Below, one piece after another: positions 20,293 through 32,502 of a stretch of 32,502 nt of DNA. The stretch is taken from positions 1 through 32,502 of the forward strand of contig OMIH01000043.1 in NCBI GenBank assembly GCA_900299045.1. The letters are read 5' to 3'. Origin of the DNA: Methylococcaceae bacterium. GTDB lineage: Bacteria; Pseudomonadota; Gammaproteobacteria; Methylococcales; Methylomonadaceae. The notes beneath the pieces are model-generated. The model had not been told where the DNA came from, did not search any database, and was given only the letters and a program-made list of their open reading frames with translations. The number at the start of each line of letters is the position of its first letter. The first letter of the stretch is position 1. The translations under genes were made by a program, and so were the position numbers.

Positions 20293-20688
20293 ATGCACCT
20301 TATTGCGTTAAATAATTGCCATTGTGGTAGTGACGTGGGCTATGCTGAGTGCTGTGAGCCATTCCATCTTGGCGTGGATTTTCCACGCACAGCGAACGCT
20401 TTAATGCGTTCGCGCTATAGTGCGTATGTAGTCAAAAATGCTGATTATTTACTCGCAACATGGCACAAAACCACGCGCCCTAATCAGATTGATTTTTCAC
20501 AAGATAATACAATGTGGCAAAAATTAGTCGTTTTGCACACCAAAAAAGGCGGTGTCAATGATGACAAAGGGCGCGTGGAATTTAATGCGTTTTATATTCA
20601 ACAGGATGAAGAACGGCTGATTCATGAAATCAGCCGTTTCAAAAAGATGGCTGGACGCTGGTTTTATGTAGACGGTGTCGTAGACTAG
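20293..20688 (+). CDS. YchJ-family SEC-C motif protein
   Basis: A small cytoplasmic protein of 131 residues (E. coli YchJ 152). An N-terminal zinc-binding SEC-C motif (C9, C11, C20, C21 or H25 in NCHCGSDVGYAECCEPFH) is followed by an NTF2-like domain with MRSRYSAYVVKNADYLLATWH, the family signature. YchJ has a single SEC-C here; the second C-terminal one of longer homologues is absent. Function unknown. It follows purH by 13 bases, and its stop shares a CTAG with the stop of the opposing glucanase gene. Confidence 0.92.
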   Translation: MHLIALNNCHCGSDVGYAECCEPFHLGVDFPRTANALMRSRYSAYVVKNADYLLATWHKTTRPNQIDFSQDNTMWQKLVVLHTKKGGVNDDKGRVEFNAFYIQQDEERLIHEISRFKKMAGRWFYVDGVVD

Positions 20689-21806
20689 CTAAAATTATCG
20701 GGTAGCCAGCCGTTATTGACACAATCACGAAAACACCACGCAGGTGTGGTTTCTGTTTTATAACTCCAAAAAAACCAACCTAAATACTTTTCAAATGTCG
20801 CTAATTGCGCGGCAGCATAGCCGCGATAAGCCACGTTCATTTGAAAATCGTCCATTTTTTCGAGTGCATGATTAAAAGGTCCTTGCGCCCAAAGCGACAC
20901 GACTTGCAAATCAAGCCCTAAGCTCCATTCTCCCAAGTACGTTTGATGCTTTAATTCGTGGATAATATCATCGGCTTCGGATTTCCATTCACCACTGGCT
21001 TTGCGAATATGCGTATAAATATCAGAATCCACATCCACACGATCAAAACACTGATAACGGTGAATATCAAACACCACATTTTCAAATTCCGGCGCTGCCA
21101 TAAAGCCGATATACTCACGAAACGAGCGAAAGCCATCGTGAAAAACCACCGCCACTGTATCGGGTGAGCAATAGCGTCGAATACGATGGTAAGCCAGCGT
21201 GTAGTAATTTTTCAAATAATCGGTTGGGATGTCCCAACGTGGTTCGTTTAACACTTGAATGCCATGCAGTGCAGGACGATTCGCATAACGCTCTGCTAGA
21301 CGTTCCACCACGCTCAATGAATGCGCTAAATACGCCTCTTGCGTATGCCACTCACAAACATCTTTAATGCCGCCATTATCAAACCCATTTTGACAACCTG
21401 ATGCCGCGTGTAAATCAATGAGAATGTTTAAACCTAATTCCTGCGCCCAATCAAACGCTTGATCTAAAATATCAATTCCCCCCGTGACAAACGGATAGGG
21501 ATTTTCACCATAAACACGGTGATATGGATAATCTGAACCAAAAATCCAATGCCCAACGGGAATGCGCACGGCATTAATGCCATGGTCTGCGAGCCAGACA
21601 AAATCGTCACGCGTGATAAAACGGTTCCAATGCGCTTTTAATACGGTATCAGCCTTGTCCCCCAATTCGACGCAAAACGTCGTTTCATCTACCGCCTCAA
21701 GACCTTCAAATAAACTAGGCGTCATCCATTTTTCAAGAACGAGCCAACCACCAAGGTTAACACCGCGTAATTTTGTGCCATGCGTTTGTTTTATTTTATG
21801 TGCCAT
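20685..21806 (-). CDS. Glycoside hydrolase family 5, exo-beta-1,3-glucanase-like, cytoplasmic
   Basis: A TIM-barrel glycosidase, 373 residues. RGVNLGGWLVLEKWMTPSLF at the N-terminus and DLHAASGCQNGFDNGG (131-146) resemble exo-beta-1,3-glucanases (GH5 subfamily 9-like). The acid/base is Glu188 in LNEP and the nucleophile Glu293 in LGEWS; both are intact. No signal peptide is visible, so it should act in the cytoplasm, unlike most such enzymes. It lies 12 bases after the upstream SbmA/YddA-like ABC gene on the same strand, so the two are probably co-transcribed. The substrate is inferred from motifs only. Confidence 0.87.
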   Translation of the reverse strand: MAHKIKQTHGTKLRGVNLGGWLVLEKWMTPSLFEGLEAVDETTFCVELGDKADTVLKAHWNRFITRDDFVWLADHGINAVRIPVGHWIFGSDYPYHRVYGENPYPFVTGGIDILDQAFDWAQELGLNILIDLHAASGCQNGFDNGGIKDVCEWHTQEAYLAHSLSVVERLAERYANRPALHGIQVLNEPRWDIPTDYLKNYYTLAYHRIRRYCSPDTVAVVFHDGFRSFREYIGFMAAPEFENVVFDIHRYQCFDRVDVDSDIYTHIRKASGEWKSEADDIIHELKHQTYLGEWSLGLDLQVVSLWAQGPFNHALEKMDDFQMNVAYRGYAAAQLATFEKYLGWFFWSYKTETTPAWCFRDCVNNGWLPDNFS

Positions 21807-21818
21807 GTGACCCCCGCG

Positions 21819-23516
21819 TTATACCGTTATTTTGCGTTCGTAAAAACCGGCTGCGCGAGATTCATGTGTAATGGTGAGAATCGCAGCATTAGGTAATTCA
21901 CGGCAAATTAAATGTAGCATGTCAATTTCATCTTTAGAATCAAGCGAGTCAAAGGCTTGTTGCAACAGTATCCATTTAGGATGTTGCAGCAGCAAACGTA
22001 CTGCACCAAGGCGTTGCTGTTGCTCACGAGAAAGCGCCAAATACCAATTGTCGTCGGTATCTAAATTGTTAACTAATTCTTCAAGACCAACAGATACTAA
22101 TTGTTTTTCTAGTTCATGTTGATCCAATTCTTCAATGCTCAATGGATAACAAATGGCTGCGCGTAGCGTTCCCATGGGTAAATAAGGACGAGGAGGCACA
22201 AATATAATGTCTTCAGGCGGTAATTCAATTTCCCCTTCACCCCATGGCCAAAAGCCAATAATGGCTTTGAAAAATTTTGACGCGGTAAATGCACTTCCTG
22301 TGACTAAAATACGCTCACCAGCCTTAATTTTCATATCCATTTTTTCGATGCATACCATGCCATCTAAGCGCATAATGGCTAAATTATGTAGCCACAAAAA
22401 AGGTAAATCCGTTTTTGTGCGACGAACGTGGTGCGGATCGCGTTTTTCAATTTCTTCTTCTAATGTATCAAGCGCATTAACCAAACTTAACACACGCTCA
22501 ACAGAGGCACGCCACTCCGCAATTTTTGCCATATTATCGACTGGCCACGAGAGTGCGGTTGCCATTTGCTGAAATGCTTGCGCTGATTGCATCAAGCCAC
22601 CAAGCGAAATACTCCCTAAAACAAAACGCGGAGAAGACACCAGAATTGGAAATGCCATTAACAATACGGAATGACCTGATGTAAACATTAAAATATGCGA
22701 CCACGCTTGCGTTTGGCGTTGCCAAGCTGTGATGATGTCGCCAAACAAATGTTGACAACGGTTTTGCTCTGTTTTTTCACCGTGCACTAATGAAATCGCC
22801 AATGAATTTTCTCTCGCATTGACCAGACCAAAACGAAAATTCGCTTCCACATTTTGACGATTATTTGTTGCATCCGTTAATGGACGACCAATCCACCAAC
22901 CCAGCACCGAAGCGCCAGCGGCATAACACATTGCCAGCCACACCAAATGCCCATAAATGGGAATTTCAAATAAACCTAAATCAATGGTAATTTTACCTGA
23001 AAGCGTCCATAAAATTTTGGTAAAACTAAACAATAACAATAAACAAAAAATTAACGAATGGGATAAATCAATTGCTGACTCCGTTGCAATGCGCACATCC
23101 TCTGCAATACGCCCATCGGGATTATCATGCGCGGACTCTGGATGTTGAATATGCGTGACTAAATAATGTCGCCCGTCTGTCATCCATTGAGCAATTAAAC
23201 GTGAAGTGAGCCATTTACGCCAATCCAGTTGCAATATCCGTTTAATTTTAAAATGCGTCACAGTAACGCCAATATTTGCAATAAAAATGAGGATAATTAG
23301 CATAATCTGTGTCAACACACCCGACATAGATCGATTTTCTAACGCGTTGAATAAATCCGCGCTCCACTCGGTAATGACTACCGCAATAACAATTTGAAAA
23401 ATGGTGAGAATAAATAACGCAAAAGTGAGTTGCCTAATTTTGGTTTTTTCTTCGGAATGCCAAAACGGAGAGGCGAGTTGAAAAAATTGTGAAAGAAATC
23501 CATTTTGAATGAGCAT
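21819..23516 (-). CDS. SbmA/BacA/YddA-like ABC transporter with degenerate ATPase domain
   Basis: A fused membrane-ATPase protein, 565 residues from the ATG at 23516; a TTG 12 codons earlier is less likely. The membrane half (about 30-330) has the SbmA/BacA-type segment NPDGRIAEDVRIATE and NVEANFRFGLVNARENSLAI. The C-terminal ATPase half has lost its catalytic features. Walker A reads TGSAFTASKFF (406-416), without the GxGKS core; the signature reads LSREQQQR (495-502) instead of LSxGEQQR; Walker B ends LLQQAFDSLD (517-526), with Gln-Gln where Asp-Glu should be. Only the switch His551 remains. The frame is intact, so this is not an obvious pseudogene. The cargo is unknown; SbmA itself is driven by the proton gradient. 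Confidence 0.85.
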   Translation of the reverse strand: MLIQNGFLSQFFQLASPFWHSEEKTKIRQLTFALFILTIFQIVIAVVITEWSADLFNALENRSMSGVLTQIMLIILIFIANIGVTVTHFKIKRILQLDWRKWLTSRLIAQWMTDGRHYLVTHIQHPESAHDNPDGRIAEDVRIATESAIDLSHSLIFCLLLLFSFTKILWTLSGKITIDLGLFEIPIYGHLVWLAMCYAAGASVLGWWIGRPLTDATNNRQNVEANFRFGLVNARENSLAISLVHGEKTEQNRCQHLFGDIITAWQRQTQAWSHILMFTSGHSVLLMAFPILVSSPRFVLGSISLGGLMQSAQAFQQMATALSWPVDNMAKIAEWRASVERVLSLVNALDTLEEEIEKRDPHHVRRTKTDLPFLWLHNLAIMRLDGMVCIEKMDMKIKAGERILVTGSAFTASKFFKAIIGFWPWGEGEIELPPEDIIFVPPRPYLPMGTLRAAICYPLSIEELDQHELEKQLVSVGLEELVNNLDTDDNWYLALSREQQQRLGAVRLLLQHPKWILLQQAFDSLDSKDEIDMLHLICRELPNAAILTITHESRAAGFYERKITV

Positions 23517-23631: not shown

Positions 23632-24717
23632 TCATGTTTGACGATAACGATAATACGCTGCACACGCACCTTCAGATGAAACCATGGTTGCGCCAAGTGG
23701 ATGTTCAGGCGTGCAAGTAACGCCAAATTGCGCACAATCCACCGGATTTAGTAACCCTTGCAACACGTCACCACTACGACAATCAGTCGATTCTTGCGTT
23801 TTTATCGCATGAACCGCAAAACGGGTTTGTGCATTCCACGGTGCATACTTGGCATTTAATGCAAAACCACTCAGGGAAATGTCACCAAGCCCCCGCCAAG
23901 TTTGATTTACTGTGTCGAAAACGTCACGCATTAAGGCTTGAGCGGCAAGATTACCCTGTGCTGTCACAACACGAGAATACTGATTTTCAACGCTATAGCG
24001 ATTTTCTTCAAGTTGTTTTATACAAAAATACAACCCTTGCAAAATATCCACTGGCTCAAAACCGCTAATGCTAATGGGAATGCGATACTGCGCAGCAAGA
24101 GCGTTGTACTCTTGATATCCCATAATAGCGCACACATGCCCTGCCCCCAAAAAACCGTGAATGCGATGATTATCACTTGATAGCAACGCCCGCATGACGG
24201 GTGGTACACGGACATGACAGATAAGAAGGGAAAAATTGGTGAGATTACGCTGTTTTGCTTGATAAGCACAAAGCGCTGTCGTTGGTGCTGTCGTTTCAAA
24301 GCCAACACCAAAAAAAACAACTTCTTTAGTGAGATTATTTTGCGCAATGGTGAGCGCATCAAGTGGTGAGTACACGATGCGAATATCCGCGCCCTGTGCT
24401 TTTAAACTAAGTAAATCTTGCTGAGAACCCGGCACACGCAGCATATCCCCAAAAGAGCAAAAAATGACATTAGGTTGCGCGGCAATGGCGAGTGCTTTAT
24501 CAATATATTCGAGCGGTGTCACACAAACAGGACATCCTGGACCGTGAATAAGCGTTATTTCATCTGCTAGCAGCTGATCGATGCCGTATTTAATAATACT
24601 GTGCGTTTGACCACCGCATACTTCCATAATATGCCAGTGTTGTGTAGTCAGCGTTTTAATCGCATTGACCCATTTTTGGGCAAGTTGCGGACTGCGAAAC
24701 GCCTTTGTGTAATTCAT
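23632..24717 (-). CDS. hypD: [NiFe]-hydrogenase maturation protein HypD
   Basis: A cytoplasmic [4Fe-4S] protein that with HypC forms the scaffold on which the Fe(CN)2CO group of [NiFe]-hydrogenase is built. 361 residues (E. coli 373). Conserved [11 protein letters not shown] (Cys34), [16 protein letters not shown] (Cys62, Cys65), [11 protein letters not shown] and the C-terminal Cys-containing [30 protein letters not shown] that ligates the cluster are all present. Its ATG overlaps the hypC stop by 4 bases. No other hyp or hydrogenase genes are in the window. Confidence 0.97.
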
Positions 24718-24959
24718 AACATTGCTTCAAAAGCCGCTAAATCATCAAAAGCCTGTAAACTTGCCAATGCTTCTGATTCATCAAGTAACGAAATCGCAAA
24801 ACCCGCATGGACAATCACGTAATCCCCCAATAGCGCTTCGGGAACGTACGCTAAACTGATTTCTTTTTGCACACCCGAAAAATCCACCACACCTGTGCGA
24901 AGTAACTCATCATCGGTTAGGGTTATTTGAACAATTTGTGCAGGAACAGCTAGGCACAT
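24714..24959 (-). CDS. hypC: [NiFe]-hydrogenase maturation chaperone HypC
   Basis: A small chaperone, 81 residues, partner of HypD and of the hydrogenase large subunit. The start is fixed by the family: the protein must begin Met-Cys, with Cys2 essential for binding iron, and the ATG at 24959 gives [12 protein letters not shown]; a TTG four codons earlier is wrong. The OB-fold core continues to [19 protein letters not shown], with the conserved His51. It is coupled to hypD by ATGA. The ribosome site is poor. Confidence 0.95.
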
Positions 24960-25399
24960 ATTATTAACCAATTGTTAAGAATTATTCGTTCTTGCGTCCA
25001 ATTTTTAGCTTGTCTAAAAAGACGCATATTGTCATGTAAAAGCATCAATCTACAATCCTACTGGTTTAACTACAAAATGATGGGTGTTTGAAAAAAAATA
25101 CGGATATTTCCTCTAGCTAATTTGGAAAATCATATCACTTTTTTAAAGATATTATCCGTCTATGCCGTGAAAAACCTAAATTTAATCATGGCTATGCTAG
25201 GTAATCTAAGCGCATTTTCAAGTGTAAAAAATAGCGTGAGATATACCGCTATGATAAAAATGCGTATTTTTCAGTGATAGTGCGTTGGTCACATTGATAT
25301 AGAACTATAAAATATACAGTTCTATCGTGGATGGTATTGGTAGCGTTAATAAGCGATTTTAATAAACGCGCCCCTAAAAAGCGCGTTTTTTTATCTTCA
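24960..25399. other. Non-coding region with several stem-loops, possible small RNA
   Basis: A 440-base gap with no credible gene. Inverted repeats on the plus strand: CGCATTTT (25211-25218) with AAAATGCG (25257-25264), enclosing ATAGCG / CGCTAT (25231-25236 / 25247-25252); and ATAGAACT (25299-25306) with AGTTCTAT (25318-25325). A terminator-like hairpin with a plus-strand T run follows. It could encode a small RNA on the plus strand or hold the leader and promoter of hypCD on the minus strand. Confidence 0.4.
25364..25392. terminator. Intrinsic terminator, strongest on plus strand
   Basis: The hairpin AAACGCGC / GCGCGTTT with a 9-base loop is followed by seven T residues on the plus strand; on the minus strand the tail is weaker (TTTATTAAAAT). 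It may end the metallopeptidase gene transcript from the minus side, or an unannotated plus-strand RNA. Confidence 0.65.
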
Positions 25400-26380
25400 C
25401 TAAACGGAAAGTGAAACTAAAGAGCCCACCGCACTGTGAAACGAGGCATTGCGCTCGATATTATCGGCAAGTTGCGTTAGGAAATCAGGCAAGTTCACCC
25501 CTGTAGAGGTCATAGATTGAGATTGACTGCTAAACGCTTGCGCTAAATGATCAAAATACGTTTGTAATTCATTATTTTGTTTAATTGAGCCAATCAAATT
25601 TTGCAAACCGGCATTGGGTCTATCATAGCCATTTTGAATTTTTGCGACATTTGGAGCATTATTTTCTGTCTCTGCCAAGGGAATGCCAATGTCTTCAAGC
25701 ATTGCAATATCAAGCGGTGAAATGGTTTTCACTTCACCTTTTTTAATAGATTCAGACATTAAATCGGCTGGAATAGCCACATGGTAATAAGCAGAGCCAT
25801 AACCCGATTTTTCAGATGCTAACGGCACGGGGTTTCCTGCATTAGCTTTTTTCGCATTTTCACCGACAAAAAAAGGCGTGCCATCCTGCATATCGACTAA
25901 ACCATCATATTTTGTGCGTAAATCGGTATTAGGATTGCCCAGCGTACCGGTGAATGCTAAACCATGCAAAACTTCATGCGTCAAAATCGACGTTAAATCA
26001 AATTTATCTGGCACGGGTTCACCGCTAAAAGACATTTCGCCTATTCGCGCTAAATTGATGAGTAAATGGGCATCGGTTGCATTAGGATTTAATTCATATT
26101 GATAGAGCGAATCTGATACGAAGGAGGTATCAATGCTCTGTTTTTGGTGAAGCGTGGCTTGCGTCATTGTGGAATCGGTTTCCGCAAGTACATTGGCATC
26201 TTTATATTTGCCGGACACTTTCAAATTGAATACCGCATCAGAGCGAATAAATTGACCGATATTATCCAATGCTTTTTTCAGATTGGCTTTAACATCTGGA
26301 AGATAGTCACCTAAATTCGCATCGCTAAAATCAATGGTGTATTTAAAATTAGTTCCGCCAGTAATTAACGAACTGTCCAC
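25400..26380 (-). CDS. Putative zinc metallopeptidase (HEVLH), likely 3' part of an interrupted gene
   Basis: 326 residues from a GTG. The zinc-peptidase motif HEVLH is at 135-139 (LTSILTHEVLHGLAFTG). His200 in SAYYHVAIPADLMSES, followed by Met208 and ISPLDIAMLEDIGIP, resembles the third ligand and Met-turn of leishmanolysin-like metzincins; this is inference. The C-terminal third is helical (LQNLIGSIKQNNELQTYFDHL). No signal peptide. The GTG has no Shine-Dalgarno, and the frame is continuous with the upstream 104-codon frame across one TAA (26399-26401), so this may be the larger part of a 437-residue protein split by a nonsense codon. Substrate unknown. Confidence 0.65.
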   Translation of the reverse strand: MDSSLITGGTNFKYTIDFSDANLGDYLPDVKANLKKALDNIGQFIRSDAVFNLKVSGKYKDANVLAETDSTMTQATLHQKQSIDTSFVSDSLYQYELNPNATDAHLLINLARIGEMSFSGEPVPDKFDLTSILTHEVLHGLAFTGTLGNPNTDLRTKYDGLVDMQDGTPFFVGENAKKANAGNPVPLASEKSGYGSAYYHVAIPADLMSESIKKGEVKTISPLDIAMLEDIGIPLAETENNAPNVAKIQNGYDRPNAGLQNLIGSIKQNNELQTYFDHLAQAFSSQSQSMTSTGVNLPDFLTQLADNIERNASFHSAVGSLVSLSV

Positions 26381-26398
26381 AACAGTCGCACTGTCGCT

Positions 26399-26713
26399 TT
26401 AGGTAATGAGGCTATTATTTTCTGCAAGTCGAAGTGCTAGCGACTGATACAAACTTTGCACAAAATTTTGCACCGCCCCCGTTTCATTTTCTGACATTTG
26501 CTCAACGTTGAAACCTACCTTTTTAAGCGTTTCAAGTACATTTTGTGTCAGTAATCCAGTATTATTTCCCTCAGCGGCGACATTATCCTCTGTTTTTGCA
26601 TTACTTTCCGCATTGATGGGCGGACTTATTGTTGTACTATCTATTTGATTTATCGTTGAATATGCACCCATCAATGGTGTATTAACCGCATAAATTGTCA
26701 TCGTCATTGCCAT
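26399..26713 (-). CDS. Short acidic protein, possible N-terminal part of the interrupted metallopeptidase
   Basis: 104 residues, not recognised. Hydrophobic-polar N-terminus (MAMTMTIYAVNTPLMGAYS), an Asn/Glu-rich linker, then an amphipathic helical stretch (VQNFVQSLYQSLALRLAENN) similar in style to the C-terminal helices of the downstream protein. It ends at a TAA, after which the same frame stays open without another stop through the whole metallopeptidase frame. It may be a genuine small gene or the N-terminal fragment of a broken or readthrough gene. An AAGGGGAT purine run lies about 20 bases before the ATG, further than usual. Confidence 0.5.
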   Translation of the reverse strand: MAMTMTIYAVNTPLMGAYSTINQIDSTTISPPINAESNAKTEDNVAAEGNNTGLLTQNVLETLKKVGFNVEQMSENETGAVQNFVQSLYQSLALRLAENNSLIT

Positions 26714-27503: not shown

Positions 27504-29432
27504 ATGGCTCGCAAAATTTCTTTTTGTCACACTCCCAGCCAATCACTCAATAACATCATGCCCACCACTACCACTACAGTCGGCACAAACGCTACCATTA
27601 ACCTCACCGGCATCGCTCAACAAAACAAAACGCTCACTATTGCTAATCCTGTTGCTGGTAATGTGTATTATTGGTATCGAGATGATACGCTAATTAAGGA
27701 TGAGAAAGGAAATGCTTTTAAAGAACCGTCATATAAACTCACGCAAGCAGATGTTGGTACTAATATCACCGTATCCTATAAAGACGGCACACATAAAACA
27801 GATCCCCTTCGCATCGCAAACGTCAATGATCAGCCAACGGGCACAGTAAAGATTTCAGGTACGCCAAAGCAAGGCAGTGAATTACAGGCAGAGGTTAACA
27901 TTAGCGATGTAGACGGCATCGGCAAAGATGAACAAGGCAACAACCTTTACAATTATCAATGGCTGCGTGATGGTAAAAATATCGTAGGAGGGACAAAATC
28001 AATCTATGCGCTATCTGTTGAAGATATTCAAAAAACGATCAGTGTTAAAGTCACCTACATCGATTTACAAAATACACTCGAAACGGTTTTAAGTAGTGGC
28101 GTTGCTGTTTCCGAACAAAAATCGACAACAAACCATCCACACACCGGAACGGTGGAAATTAAAGGTATTGCACAACAGCACAAACTGTTAACCGTAATTG
28201 ATACCCTTGCCGATGTCGATGGACTTGGGACGGTGACTTATCATTGGTTACTGGATGGCGAAGAAAAGTCTACTGATGCCAGTTATACGTTAACGCAAGA
28301 GGATGTAGGTAAAAATATCAGTTTATTTGCCAGTTATACGGATCGCTCTGGTTATATAGAAACAACCGATAAAACCGCCGTGATTCGCGTGACAAATATC
28401 AATGATCCACCTACCGGTACGTTGAACATTTTTGTCAATAAAGACGATCACGCACCCACTACACCAAAAGCCGCTCAAAAGGACACGCTAACAGTCAACA
28501 ATACGCTGGAAGATTTAGACGGTATTGGCGTAGATAAAAATGGAAAAAAATTATTCCAATATCAGTGGCTCCGTGACGGTGCCGCCATTGCAGGTGAAAC
28601 GGGCGAAAAACATATACTCACCCAAACCGATGTCAATAAAATCATTAGTGTGAAAACAAGCTATATTGATTTGCAAGGACAAAAAGAAAATGTCACCTCA
28701 GCCGGTTTATCAATAGACAATGTCAATGACTCGCCAACAGGATCGGTTTACATTGCGGGCACTCCTAACGTAGGGCGTACGCTAAATGCCGCACCGCAGT
28801 TAATTGATTTAGATGGTTTAGGTGAAATGACGTATCAATGGTACCGAGGTGACGTTAAAATTGAAAATGCCACGCAGGTAAATTATACGCTCACAAAAGA
28901 TGACGTAGGTGCGCAAATCAGCGTTACAGTGGCTTATGTAGATGGATTTGGCACCTCAGAAAGCAAGTCAAGTCAAAAAATGTCACAGACTGTCACCACT
29001 AGCACAAAAACATCTATTGGCAATGATTACATTACCGGCACATCAAAATCAGAAAAAATAACCGGATTAAGTGGTGATGACACGTTAATTGGAGGTCTTG
29101 GCAATGACACGTTAACCGGTGGTCTTGGAAATGATATCTTTCTATTTAATAATGAAAAAGAAATCAATAAAGATACGATTGTCGATTTCACGCACGATAA
29201 AGACAAACTAGATATATCACGCATTGATGCCGATATAAAGATAGCGGGGACGCAAAACTTTATATTTATAGGAAATGACGTGCCATTTACTAAAGGCGAG
29301 GCAATAGGGAAATTACGTTTTGATTCACAAAAACATATTCTCTACGGTAGTAATGATGCTGATGTTCAACCCGAATTTTCGATTGTACTCACCGGTGTTG
29401 ATTCACTAGAAATCAGCGATTTTATATTTTGA
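27504..29432 (+). CDS. RTX-type secreted protein with five Ig-like domains
   Basis: A putative surface or secreted calcium-binding adhesin-like protein, 642 residues. Five Ig-like repeats (about 27-108, 113-203, 214-298, 305-408, 413-490) share 'DLDG.G...YQWLRDG' and 'LT..DVG..I.V...Y.D' strands. RTX nonapeptide repeats follow (about 520-547: GLSGDDTLIGGLGNDTLTGG), then a C-terminal domain ending SLEISDFIF, which fits a type I secretion signal. No secretion genes are in the window. The start is uncertain: the first 18 residues differ in style from the rest and an ATG at 27558 (MPTTTTTVG) is possible. Its 3' end overlaps the convergent csgG by 11 bases. Confidence 0.85.
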   Translation: MARKISFCHTPSQSLNNIMPTTTTTVGTNATINLTGIAQQNKTLTIANPVAGNVYYWYRDDTLIKDEKGNAFKEPSYKLTQADVGTNITVSYKDGTHKTDPLRIANVNDQPTGTVKISGTPKQGSELQAEVNISDVDGIGKDEQGNNLYNYQWLRDGKNIVGGTKSIYALSVEDIQKTISVKVTYIDLQNTLETVLSSGVAVSEQKSTTNHPHTGTVEIKGIAQQHKLLTVIDTLADVDGLGTVTYHWLLDGEEKSTDASYTLTQEDVGKNISLFASYTDRSGYIETTDKTAVIRVTNINDPPTGTLNIFVNKDDHAPTTPKAAQKDTLTVNNTLEDLDGIGVDKNGKKLFQYQWLRDGAAIAGETGEKHILTQTDVNKIISVKTSYIDLQGQKENVTSAGLSIDNVNDSPTGSVYIAGTPNVGRTLNAAPQLIDLDGLGEMTYQWYRGDVKIENATQVNYTLTKDDVGAQISVTVAYVDGFGTSESKSSQKMSQTVTTSTKTSIGNDYITGTSKSEKITGLSGDDTLIGGLGNDTLTGGLGNDIFLFNNEKEINKDTIVDFTHDKDKLDISRIDADIKIAGTQNFIFIGNDVPFTKGEAIGKLRFDSQKHILYGSNDADVQPEFSIVLTGVDSLEISDFIF

Positions 29433-30804
29433 TTTTCTCGCGTTTTCGACATAGCGGAGAGGCTTTTTTTGGCGTGAGTTTATGCGTTTTATGTAAGGGT
29501 TGCTCTTGTCTTAGCGTTAACTTTTTATGCGAAGAGCGTTCGTGTGTTTCTTTGCGTAAATGTAGATGATGCGTTGATTTACTACTTGCCGGTTTGATGC
29601 CTAATACGCGCTGTTTATGTTTAATAGCGCTTTTGGGGTTGGCTTTTTCGTCTGGTTTAGGTGCGGCAGTTGTCTGCGTTGAGGGTTGCGATTTCATTTT
29701 TGGCGCATCCGCGCTAGCAGGCGCTTTCGCGGGTACTGTAGCAGGTGCAACATTAGAGGGCACTTTCGCAGGTGGCGTTGCAGTAGCCGGTGCAACCGCT
29801 TTTTGTACAGGTGTGGGGGAGGCTTGTGCAGGAGCCTGAGCGGATGTGGCTTGAGCAGGTGCAGGGGGTGTGGGTTTAGCATCTGATGGCACGTCTTTTT
29901 TAACCGACTTACCTTCAAGTTCCTCGATTTCTTGTGAATCTTCATTCGCTTGCGCTTTCATTTCAGATTCGTACTTTTTCAACCAAACTTCTTGTTGCTC
30001 TTTATCCTCAAACGACCATAGTTTGTTAATCACGCCATCCATAATCGTTGAATATACACACGTTTCAATGGATTCCATTACCGCCATTTGAGGGGGTTCA
30101 TTACTGGTTACACCCGCTTCTGCTTCGAGTAAACTTTTAAATGCGACATAACGAAATGCGCCTGAATCGAGTTGCACCGATAAAATCGTTTTACGGGCAT
30201 CGACATTAGACAGCACTTGACCATTTTTGACAGACACCGTGCGTAGCATTGTCGTCACGGTATCTTTTCGTATTTCCGTTGATCCGCCCATACCTAAATA
30301 ATGCAACCCCATGCCACCGGTTAGCGAATTATTTTCATAAGCAATAATGCCGCCTTGCAATAAAATGGGCGCATAAAGCAAGGGTGGCAACCCTTGATTT
30401 TGCAAATCTTTTGCGTACATTTCGCGCGTTTGGTTGATAATTTTCCGCTCATTGAGCAAATCCGGCAAACCTTCACGCTCAAGTACCGTAAACCATTTTC
30501 CATTCCCCGCTTCAAGCAATGCACGCACTAACATCGACGTCGCGCCTTGCGTCACTGCGGTGGAATTTTGCATGATGCTATCACTGCCTTTGTATTGTCC
30601 CGTTTGATCGCGGAATTTATACACGGCAACAACAATAGGCTCACGTGGCGGTGGCAATGAACGAAGCACATCCGTCAAATGCGAATGGTAATCCATAATG
30701 GCTTGGCTCGACGAAATCGGTTGCAAAGTAGTACACGACGACAAAAAAAGGGTAGTCGTGACACTCGCCATGAGTCGCCAAGAAAGAAAGGGAATCGTTT
30801 TCAC
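29422..30804 (-). CDS. csgG: Curli secretion channel lipoprotein CsgG with long C-terminal extension
   Basis: Outer-membrane lipoprotein that forms the nonameric curlin export pore. Lipobox LFLSSC with Cys24; the CsgG domain (about 25-272) has AVYKFRDQTGQYK, STAVTQGATSMLVRALLE, FTVLEREGLPDLLNERKII, YENNSLTGGMGLHYLGMGG and TSNEPP..ESIETCV, all close to E. coli CsgG (277 residues). The protein runs to 460: residues 273-460 add a charged coil, an Ala/Pro-rich linker and a Lys/His/Arg-rich tail. Such a tail would probably face the periplasm. It overlaps csgF by 4 bases and is the last gene of the cluster. Confidence 0.94.
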   Translation of the reverse strand: MKTIPFLSWRLMASVTTTLFLSSCTTLQPISSSQAIMDYHSHLTDVLRSLPPPREPIVVAVYKFRDQTGQYKGSDSIMQNSTAVTQGATSMLVRALLEAGNGKWFTVLEREGLPDLLNERKIINQTREMYAKDLQNQGLPPLLYAPILLQGGIIAYENNSLTGGMGLHYLGMGGSTEIRKDTVTTMLRTVSVKNGQVLSNVDARKTILSVQLDSGAFRYVAFKSLLEAEAGVTSNEPPQMAVMESIETCVYSTIMDGVINKLWSFEDKEQQEVWLKKYESEMKAQANEDSQEIEELEGKSVKKDVPSDAKPTPPAPAQATSAQAPAQASPTPVQKAVAPATATPPAKVPSNVAPATVPAKAPASADAPKMKSQPSTQTTAAPKPDEKANPKSAIKHKQRVLGIKPASSKSTHHLHLRKETHERSSHKKLTLRQEQPLHKTHKLTPKKASPLCRKREKIKI

Positions 30805-31280
30805 TGCGTTACTTGGGGTAGCACAATACTTGGAATCGAAAGCACTGTATTGGTAATGCCATCGCTGACGCTCACCGCCACATTACCTGAGGCATCAGGT
30901 GAATTATCGACATTGACGGTAAAATCTGGCAAACCATCATTATCTAAGTCAAAACTCAAATTTGAGCCTAATTTAATCGTGCCGTTAGCATTAAATAATT
31001 GACTCGTTGAGGTACTCGTTAATTTAGTTAAAATCGAATTTTGTAAATTGAGTTTAAATTTGTCAATATTGGCTTGAAATTTTTGCTCGGCTGTTAAATT
31101 CACAGTGGGGACTTTGGGTGCTACGCTAGTATCTTGTGCTTGTGCATTGCTGAGAATAAATCCACCATTTCCGGAATTTCCGCCAAACATCGGATCAACA
31201 AATCGATGTGCTAATTCCGTCGCTTGCGCGGACGCAATACAGCAGGTAAGTAATGTAAAAGCCAAACTTATTTTTCGCAT
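30801..31280 (-). CDS. csgF: Curli assembly factor CsgF
   Basis: A small exported protein that plugs into CsgG and couples curlin secretion to surface nucleation. 159 residues (E. coli 138), signal peptide ending ASAQA at about 20. The N-terminal mature region carries the CsgG-binding signature FVDPMFGGNSGNGGFILSNA followed by QAQ, matching E. coli FRNPNFGGNPNNGAFLLNS. The C-terminal half includes LDNDGLPDFTVNVDNSPD, an acidic loop reminiscent of calcium-binding sequence and not typical of E. coli CsgF. ATG overlaps the csgE stop (TAATG), and the stop overlaps the csgG start. Confidence 0.92.
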   Translation of the reverse strand: MRKISLAFTLLTCCIASAQATELAHRFVDPMFGGNSGNGGFILSNAQAQDTSVAPKVPTVNLTAEQKFQANIDKFKLNLQNSILTKLTSTSTSQLFNANGTIKLGSNLSFDLDNDGLPDFTVNVDNSPDASGNVAVSVSDGITNTVLSIPSIVLPQVTQ

Positions 31281-31654
31281 TATTTACGCTCTAATTGTTT
31301 TTGTATGTCTATTTTTTGCTGAAAAACGCTTTGAATAACGGATTTCGCTGCTTGTACTTTTTCATCAAGTCCTAACATTCGTGAACCAATTCTGTCTTCA
31401 TAAACCACATTTTCATCGACTTCAATAGAAATAATATTGCCCAAAAACGGATCGGGACGCTCATTCACCACGACACTGACAATATTATCGGGTATTTCCA
31501 TATCACTACTTAAATCGTCATAAAACATTCGACCAACGCGCGACACAGTCTGGTCAATGATCATGCCAGCAATTTGAATGTCTGCCGCCAAACACGACGC
31601 ACTCAAACCACACAGTAAAAACACCCCCCCTAAACCAACTCGATTGCGCTTCAT
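31280..31654 (-). CDS. csgE: Curli assembly/secretion factor CsgE
   Basis: A periplasmic accessory protein that caps CsgG and delivers curlins. 124 residues (E. coli 129) with a signal peptide ending near SCLAA (about 24). IAGMIIDQTVSRVGRMFYDD, VVNERPDPFLGNIISIEV and a C-terminal KVQAAKSVIQSVF match the CsgE fold (E. coli LLTDHTVSSIGHDFY, INERPSARWGSWITITV). It is 9 bases after the curlin gene and overlaps csgF by one base. Confidence 0.92.
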   Translation of the reverse strand: MKRNRVGLGGVFLLCGLSASCLAADIQIAGMIIDQTVSRVGRMFYDDLSSDMEIPDNIVSVVVNERPDPFLGNIISIEVDENVVYEDRIGSRMLGLDEKVQAAKSVIQSVFQQKIDIQKQLERK

Positions 31655-31663
31655 GGACGAGTG

Positions 31664-32011
31664 CTAGTTGGATTGATTGATGGTAATACTGTTATTTTTA
31701 CCTGTTTGATTGATATTGGCACTGTTATTGCTACCTTTTTGAACAATCTTTGCGGTATTGCAATCGCCCGTTTGGGACACTTTTGCTTGATTGCTTTTGC
31801 CTTCTTGCTGAAGATGCACATCGTTATCGGTGCCTTCTTGCACAACCTCTTTGGTGTTATTGATACCGTTTTGAATAATCGTTTGATGATTAGTCGAGTC
31901 GGTGGTCGATGTTTCCGTTGCAGCGGATTCATCGCAATCTAACGCAAAACTGTGTACAGGCATCATTAAGAAAGGTAAACACCAAAATAAGATTGTTGCA
32001 GAAGGTCGCAT
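31664..32011 (-). CDS. Curlin subunit, CsgB-like, with seven 11-residue repeats
   Basis: A secreted amyloid subunit of 115 residues. Signal peptide to about residue 23 (PVHSFA). After a Thr/Ser-rich linker the protein is a strict 11-residue repeat: Asn at 41, 52, 63, 74, 85, 96 and 107, each followed by five residues and Gln (N-x5-Q). This matches the strand-turn-strand curlin ladder, at half the usual 22-residue unit. Charged residues in several repeats and its small size favour a minor or nucleator (CsgB-type) role, but the assignment between CsgA and CsgB is inference. It is first of the csgEFG run and follows a terminator. Confidence 0.88.
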   Translation of the reverse strand: MRPSATILFWCLPFLMMPVHSFALDCDESAATETSTTDSTNHQTIIQNGINNTKEVVQEGTDNDVHLQQEGKSNQAKVSQTGDCNTAKIVQKGSNNSANINQTGKNNSITINQSN

Positions 32012-32028
32012 TGTTTTTCCTTTAGCAG

Positions 32029-32058
32029 ATAAAAAGCGCTCTACTTACGCAGAGCGCC
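32029..32058 (-). terminator. Terminator or attenuator between the two curlin genes
   Basis: On the minus strand GCGCTCT, an 8-base loop, AGAGCGC, then TTTTTATC. A second hairpin (CGATTCG / CGAATCG, 32074-32093) lies just upstream. Located between the major-type curlin and the CsgB-like gene. Confidence 0.75.
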
Positions 32059-32111
32059 TCTTTGCAACACAAACGATTCGTTGCAGCGAATCGCTTATAT
32101 CAAGCCGTCAA

Positions 32112-32502
32112 TTACTGAGCGTTGATATTTAAAGTGTTGTTCGCACCACCTTGTTGAGCGATGTTAAGATCGCCTGTACTAGTGATGCTTGCAACGTTGT
32201 TGCTATCTAAACCAGTTGAAGTTTGCGCAACAGTAATGTTGCCATCAGTTGCAACGGTTAAATCGTTGTTGCCACCCGCTTGTTGATCAACATTTACTGC
32301 ACCAGCAGTAGTGATATCAGCAGTGTTATTGCCAGAAGCGTTTTGCGAAACGTTTACAGCACCGTCAGTAGTGATTGTTGCTGTATTGTTGCCAGCAGTT
32401 GCTGCTTGTGTTAAGTCAACGTTTGCTGTGCTGTTAACGTCAGCGTTTGTTGCGATAGTTGCTGTGTTATCACCACCAGTAGCGCTTTGGCTAAGTGCTA
32501 CG
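32112..32502 (-). CDS. Curlin-type amyloid subunit, N-terminus beyond window
   Basis: An open frame runs to the window edge and ends at TAA (32112-32114); 129 residues are visible, all low-complexity repeats of about 20 residues. Each unit has a 'NV.Q.A.G.NN.A.I.T.G' pattern: Gln at visible residues 32, 53, 73, 93 and 116; Asn-Asn at 38, 58, 78, 101 and 121. This is curlin-like strand-turn-strand sequence, but the units are rich in Thr, Ala, Asp and Gly and lack the closing Gln of CsgA. It ends NTLNINAQ. Place upstream of a terminator and of csgEFG suggests the major fibre subunit (CsgA-type). Start, signal peptide and full length are not visible. Confidence 0.82.
   Translation of the reverse strand, partial: VALSQSATGGDNTATIATNADVNSTANVDLTQAATAGNNTATITTDGAVNVSQNASGNNTADITTAGAVNVDQQAGGNNDLTVATDGNITVAQTSTGLDSNNVASITSTGDLNIAQQGGANNTLNINAQ

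Follow-up and report, generated by a model that had tools for sequence, protein, structure and literature searches.

The protein encoded at positions 21819 to 23516 of the window (the whole stretch of 32,502 nucleotides analysed here) is a full-length ABC half-transporter of the SbmA/YddA/BclA type that has lost the catalytic motifs of its ATPase domain, a loss common to its family, and the domain that carried them is retained under strong purifying selection. The best explanation, to which we give an even chance of being right, is a homodimeric inner-membrane transporter of the SbmA/YddA/BclA fold that works independently of ATP, by facilitated or secondary transport, and whose dead ATPase domain plays a structural part. 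The original prediction had proposed a full-length transporter with a structural or regulatory ATPase domain, and the loss of the motifs together with the retention and selection of the domain bears this out. The features on which the analysis rests are the following:

21819..23516, minus strand: ATPase-dead SbmA/YddA/BclA-type ABC half-transporter, 565 residues (open reading frame, PF06472 and PF05992 matches, relation to Rv1819c)
22452..23459, minus strand: transmembrane domain, residues ~20-355 (PF06472 and PF05992 matches, SbmA chain alignment)
21822..22421, minus strand: degenerate ATPase domain, residues ~366-565 (weak ABC_tran score, AlphaFold, ω)
22275..22298, minus strand: degenerate Walker A, G407-SAFTAS-K414, one residue shorter than canonical (sequence and alignment)
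22191..22193, minus strand: Pro-442 at the position of the Q-loop Gln (Pro in 75/75 non-redundant members)
22011..22034, minus strand: degenerate signature LSREQQQR, residues 495-502 (R497 and E498 each in 71/75)
21957..21962, minus strand: degenerate Walker B, Gln519-Gln520 replacing Asp-Glu (family residue counts)
20685..21806, minus strand: GH5 exo-β-1,3-glucanase-like enzyme, signal-less, downstream partner (PF00150, PDB matches, synteny)

Loss of the catalytic motifs and retention of the domain

The reading frame opens on the minus strand with an ATG at 23516, behind a GGAG-like ribosome-binding site, and runs to a stop codon at 21819 without internal stops, so that the predicted SbmA/YddA-type transporter is found where it had been placed and with its frame intact. 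Its N-terminal part matches PF06472 (ABC_membrane_2, E 2.7e-35) and PF05992 (SbmA_BacA, E 1.1e-18), both above the curated cut-offs. The C-terminal part reaches 12.9 bits against the Pfam profile ABC_tran, for which the curated cut-off is 25 bits, in comparison to 68-79 bits for canonical relatives, E. coli YddA included. The family may have gone unnoticed because searches with PF00005 at the curated cut-off miss the degenerate domain; our literature searches found no description of this family.

Walker A, Q-loop, signature and Walker B are all non-canonical in the window copy, and none of the four retains a catalytically competent sequence. Walker A lies in a P-loop that is one residue short, Arg-497 and Glu-498 of the signature stand where x-Gly is expected, and Walker B reads LLQQ, with Gln-519 and Gln-520 in place of Asp-Glu. 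The switch-loop position is still a histidine (His-551) in the window genus. The Walker A, signature and Walker B degradations quoted in the original prediction are all present in the translation, while Pro-442 and the short P-loop had been overlooked.

Full-length homologues occur throughout the Methylomonadaceae (gammaproteobacterial methanotrophs), with identities of 74-89% in 17/17 congeners searched and of 50-66% in the remaining transporter-bearing genera. The relatives come, nearest first, from Methylococcaceae/Methylococcales MAGs (UBA10906 and others), and then from Methylobacter, Methylomonas, Methylovulum, Methylicorpusculum and Crenothrix, and the full-length homologues listed contain no internal stops. 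The motif loss is common to 18 genomes of the same genus and to members from many Methylomonadaceae genera. Among 75 non-redundant family members, the Q-loop Gln is replaced by Pro in every one, Arg-497 and Glu-498 are each found in 71 (~95%), and the Walker B Asp position (519) is occupied by Gln in 68 (91%) and by Glu in 7. At the position of the catalytic Glu (520) there are 61 members with Glu and 12 with Gln, the window genus among the latter. Lys-414 is conserved in 68/75 and replaced by Arg in the rest, the first Gly of the P-loop is retained, and at the switch position 46 members carry Asn, 16 His and 10 Lys. The recurrence of these non-canonical residues from member to member excludes chance as their origin.

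Codon models over 17 congeners gave ω values of 0.097 (ATPase half) and 0.065 (transmembrane half); the corresponding halves of canonical MsbA-like genes from the same genus gave 0.057 and 0.053. All of these values are approximate, as synonymous sites are near saturation. The dead ATPase domain is therefore under strong purifying selection, which is slightly weaker but far from neutral. An AlphaFold model computed with 49 relatives (pLDDT 83.9, pTM 0.72) predicts an intact ABC fold, and the ATPase domain is confidently folded, with block means mostly between 81 and 92 from residue 371. The top structural match of the model, over its full length and thus including an ABC-fold ATPase domain, is Rv1819c, which is also the closest solved relative by sequence. 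SbmA (chain 9g3g_B) aligns with the first AlphaFold model over the transmembrane domain only (Z 23.3, rmsd 3.2, 306 residues), and both segments aligned to the coupling-helix regions, which are missing in SbmA, are retained in the window transporter. With YddA, BclA and Rv1819c the protein shares the domain order and homology over the full length; those proteins, however, have all four of the motifs that are lost here, and BclA proteins are described as ATP-dependent (PMC12003926).

Could the domain still bind ATP or another nucleotide without hydrolysing it, and serve as a sensor that opens and closes the transporter? Lys-414 and the folded P-loop helix could permit weak nucleotide binding: the residue is Lys or Arg in 75/75, the first P-loop Gly is kept, the domain is strongly selected and predicted to be folded, and one-site degenerate ABC exporters retain ATP as a glue, as reviewed in PMC7756269. 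On the other hand, the P-loop is shortened, the Walker B Asp is gone, the Q-loop Gln is missing in the members examined and the signature Gly in nearly all of them, and a sister lineage has dropped the entire domain. We consider such a sensor possible, though unlikely.

Relation to SbmA and history of the clade

According to a recent proposal, SbmA descends from a YddA-type protein that lost its ATPase domain (Ettema 2026, PMC13316013), and the original prediction had seen an intermediate towards SbmA in the window protein. We built the tree on the transmembrane domain alone, so that the ATPase trait was excluded. A position as sister or ancestor of SbmA was rejected (AU p 0.011), with the caveat that SbmA forms a long branch. 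The window transporter and SbmA/BacA (SLiPT) have in common the transmembrane fold and the kinship to YddA/BclA, and presumably also the loss of the ATP drive. SbmA/BacA, however, lacks the ATPase domain and the coupling helices and carries a ladder of six glutamates, whereas the window transporter possesses both the domain and the coupling segments, which places it outside the SLiPT definition, and misses three of the ladder residues. The idea of an intermediate thus holds in a modified form: the protein is not on the line to SbmA, but its clade contains intermediates and an ATPase-less end point of its own. It is a parallel to, or an analogue of, the SbmA intermediate and not an ancestor.

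The glutamate ladder of SbmA comprises E193, E203, E269, E276, E287 and E378. Three of the six are found in the window transporter (E139, E224 and E334), the identical three to those of E. coli YddA, so that a complete SbmA-type proton ladder is not present. This bears on the alternative that the protein is an SbmA-like proton-coupled importer which happens to retain its ATPase domain. The SbmA-type transmembrane domain would fit such an importer, as would the conservation of E139 (equivalent to SbmA E193) and E224 (E276) in 91/91 members and of E334 (E378) in 61. The equivalents of E203, E269 and E287 are nevertheless absent, and the glutamates that remain are shared with the ATP-driven YddA; a proton drive is therefore possible but not specifically supported, and we regard this alternative as quite improbable.

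The dead family and four relatives form one clade (100/100, all 26 rows), which branches from within the canonical YddA/BclA-type transporters. In two of the relatives, G426 and G541 (44% identical), Walker A and the switch His are lost while the Q-loop Gln and the signature Gly are kept; in G426 the Asp-Glu of Walker B is also intact. In G821 (47%) Walker B has lost its Asp and the signature its Gly as well, but the Gln of the Q-loop and the His remain. G444 (51%; L186/L213) has no ATPase domain and consists of the transmembrane domain only, with hisH directly after its stop codon, and a tblastn search for the domain in another frame found none. Since all clade members with an ATPase domain have a P-loop that is one residue shorter, the P-loop was probably lost early.

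Methylococcaceae of the same bacterial order hold YddA-like proteins in which the ATPase is degraded as well. These form a separate clade (100/99) adjoining a canonical relative, and their substitutions differ: Walker A is GxxxxAK[V/L/Q], Walker B is LDR, the Q-loop residue is Glu, and the signature is kept in most of them. The separate position and the different substitutions mark a second, independent erosion. This lineage corresponds to L055-L060 (genomes G039, G046, G051, G057 and G060); G057 encodes six PF06472 proteins.

We lend about half of our confidence to a history in which an ABC family became an ATP-independent transporter independently of SbmA and in steps: the P-loop would have gone first, Walker B, signature, Q-loop and switch His in varying order, and the whole domain in one lineage, while elsewhere the dead domain would have stayed on in a new function, structural or gating. 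The conversion of a primary ABC transporter into a secondary one has so far been known from a single end point, SbmA. A motor domain that has lost its working parts and yet has kept its body over a very long period is a natural in-between stage from ATP-driven to ATP-free transport; such a degraded-domain stage is not described in the searched portion of PMC13316013, nor is a full-length family with all sites dead in the portions of PMC13316013, PMC12003926 and PMC7756269 covered by our search. Every stage is alive today in this clade, cultivated Methylomonas and Methylobacter included, which makes the role of an ATPase domain after hydrolysis has ceased directly testable.

Subunit assembly, the GH5 partner and a possible mechanism

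A search for PF06472 proteins found no second one in the window genome or in any congener, from which we infer a homodimer, and a homodimer without a working ATP site could not use the ABC cycle. Degenerate sites normally occur in heteromeric ABC exporters (PMC7756269, a review of the one-site degenerate systems), and the conserved non-canonical ATP-site residues resemble those of TM287/288, TmrAB, TAP and CFTR (type I, one degenerate site). By analogy with TM287/288 or TAP, the protein might pair with a canonical ABC half-transporter and contribute the degenerate site of the resulting heterodimer. In those systems, however, the heteromer or fused dimer still has one functional site, whereas here every subunit is degenerate and all sites are lost, the trans signature included; no canonical partner was found within the PF06472 family, and no ABC gene is a conserved neighbour. 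A heterodimer thus appears very improbable. That an ordinary ABC transporter has recently decayed into a pseudogene in the window lineage, the simple decay for which the original prediction had also allowed, is practically untenable: the window Walker A deviates slightly further than that of its congeners (G412A, L415F), but the congeners likewise lack canonical motifs, all the full-length copies listed have an open frame, the family as a whole conserves the replacement residues, and an ω of about 0.1 in the ATPase half is not relaxed.

The only conserved neighbour of the transporter is a GH5 gene, which lies next downstream on the same strand in 65/102 loci, usually separated from it by some tens of bases (12 bp in the window), while the other flanks vary from genus to genus. 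In a set of 61 genomes it is present in 27/30 with the transporter and in 0/31 without; at genus level within the family the figures are 9/12 and 0/8 (Fisher p 0.0014, uncorrected for relatedness). The best PDB matches of the GH5 protein (Pfam PF00150) are exo-β-1,3-glucanases, and its catalytic Glu motifs (NEP in 65/65, GEW/GEF in 63/65) mark it as a putative enzyme of this type. A simple hydropathy check found a signal peptide in 0/65 members, so that the enzyme is presumably cytosolic. In the Methylococcaceae genome G093, which is without GH5, the neighbours of the transporter are a GH17, a GH17-GT2 synthase and a GH30. Together with the GH5 pairing these point to β-glucans or β-glucosides, a pathway being the safer statement than a defined substrate, and the transporter probably handles β-glucosidic substrates. 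Three genera and the basal members hold the transporter without a GH5 gene, and the substrate link may therefore be secondary. The GH17-GT2 β-glucan synthase was rejected as a strict partner, because it is common in transporter-free genomes too; the homologue in the window genome (G000:C38:10924-13464) contains one in-frame TAA.

For the ATP-independent homodimer, we infer direction, energy source and substrate as follows. The ATPase domain would stay folded and sit against the transmembrane domain, probably as a dimerising and gating scaffold, which most lineages would still need and one has discarded. Transport could proceed by alternating access, driven either by the gradient of the substrate itself or by that of a coupled ion. 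The substrate, probably a β-linked glucoside or a short β-glucan, would enter the cytosol, where the GH5 enzyme encoded alongside would hydrolyse it and so pull the flux. Facilitated transport drained in this way by a cytosolic hydrolase would need no extra energy and would fit the gene pair.

Other genes in the window

Immediately upstream of the transporter, on the same strand, lie hypC and hypD (23632-24971, minus strand), as they do in several congeners. A functional link to HypC/HypD was considered and set aside as incidental, the flank being confined to some congeners (~11/102 loci). Two open reading frames of 326 and 104 residues without a convincing Pfam match occupy 25400-26713 (minus strand), the longer of which has an HEVLH motif, as in zinc metalloproteases. 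An RTX/PKD-like secreted protein (27504-29432, plus strand) adjoins a curli-type group (29422-32501, minus strand) with CsgG, CsgE and curlin-repeat proteins.
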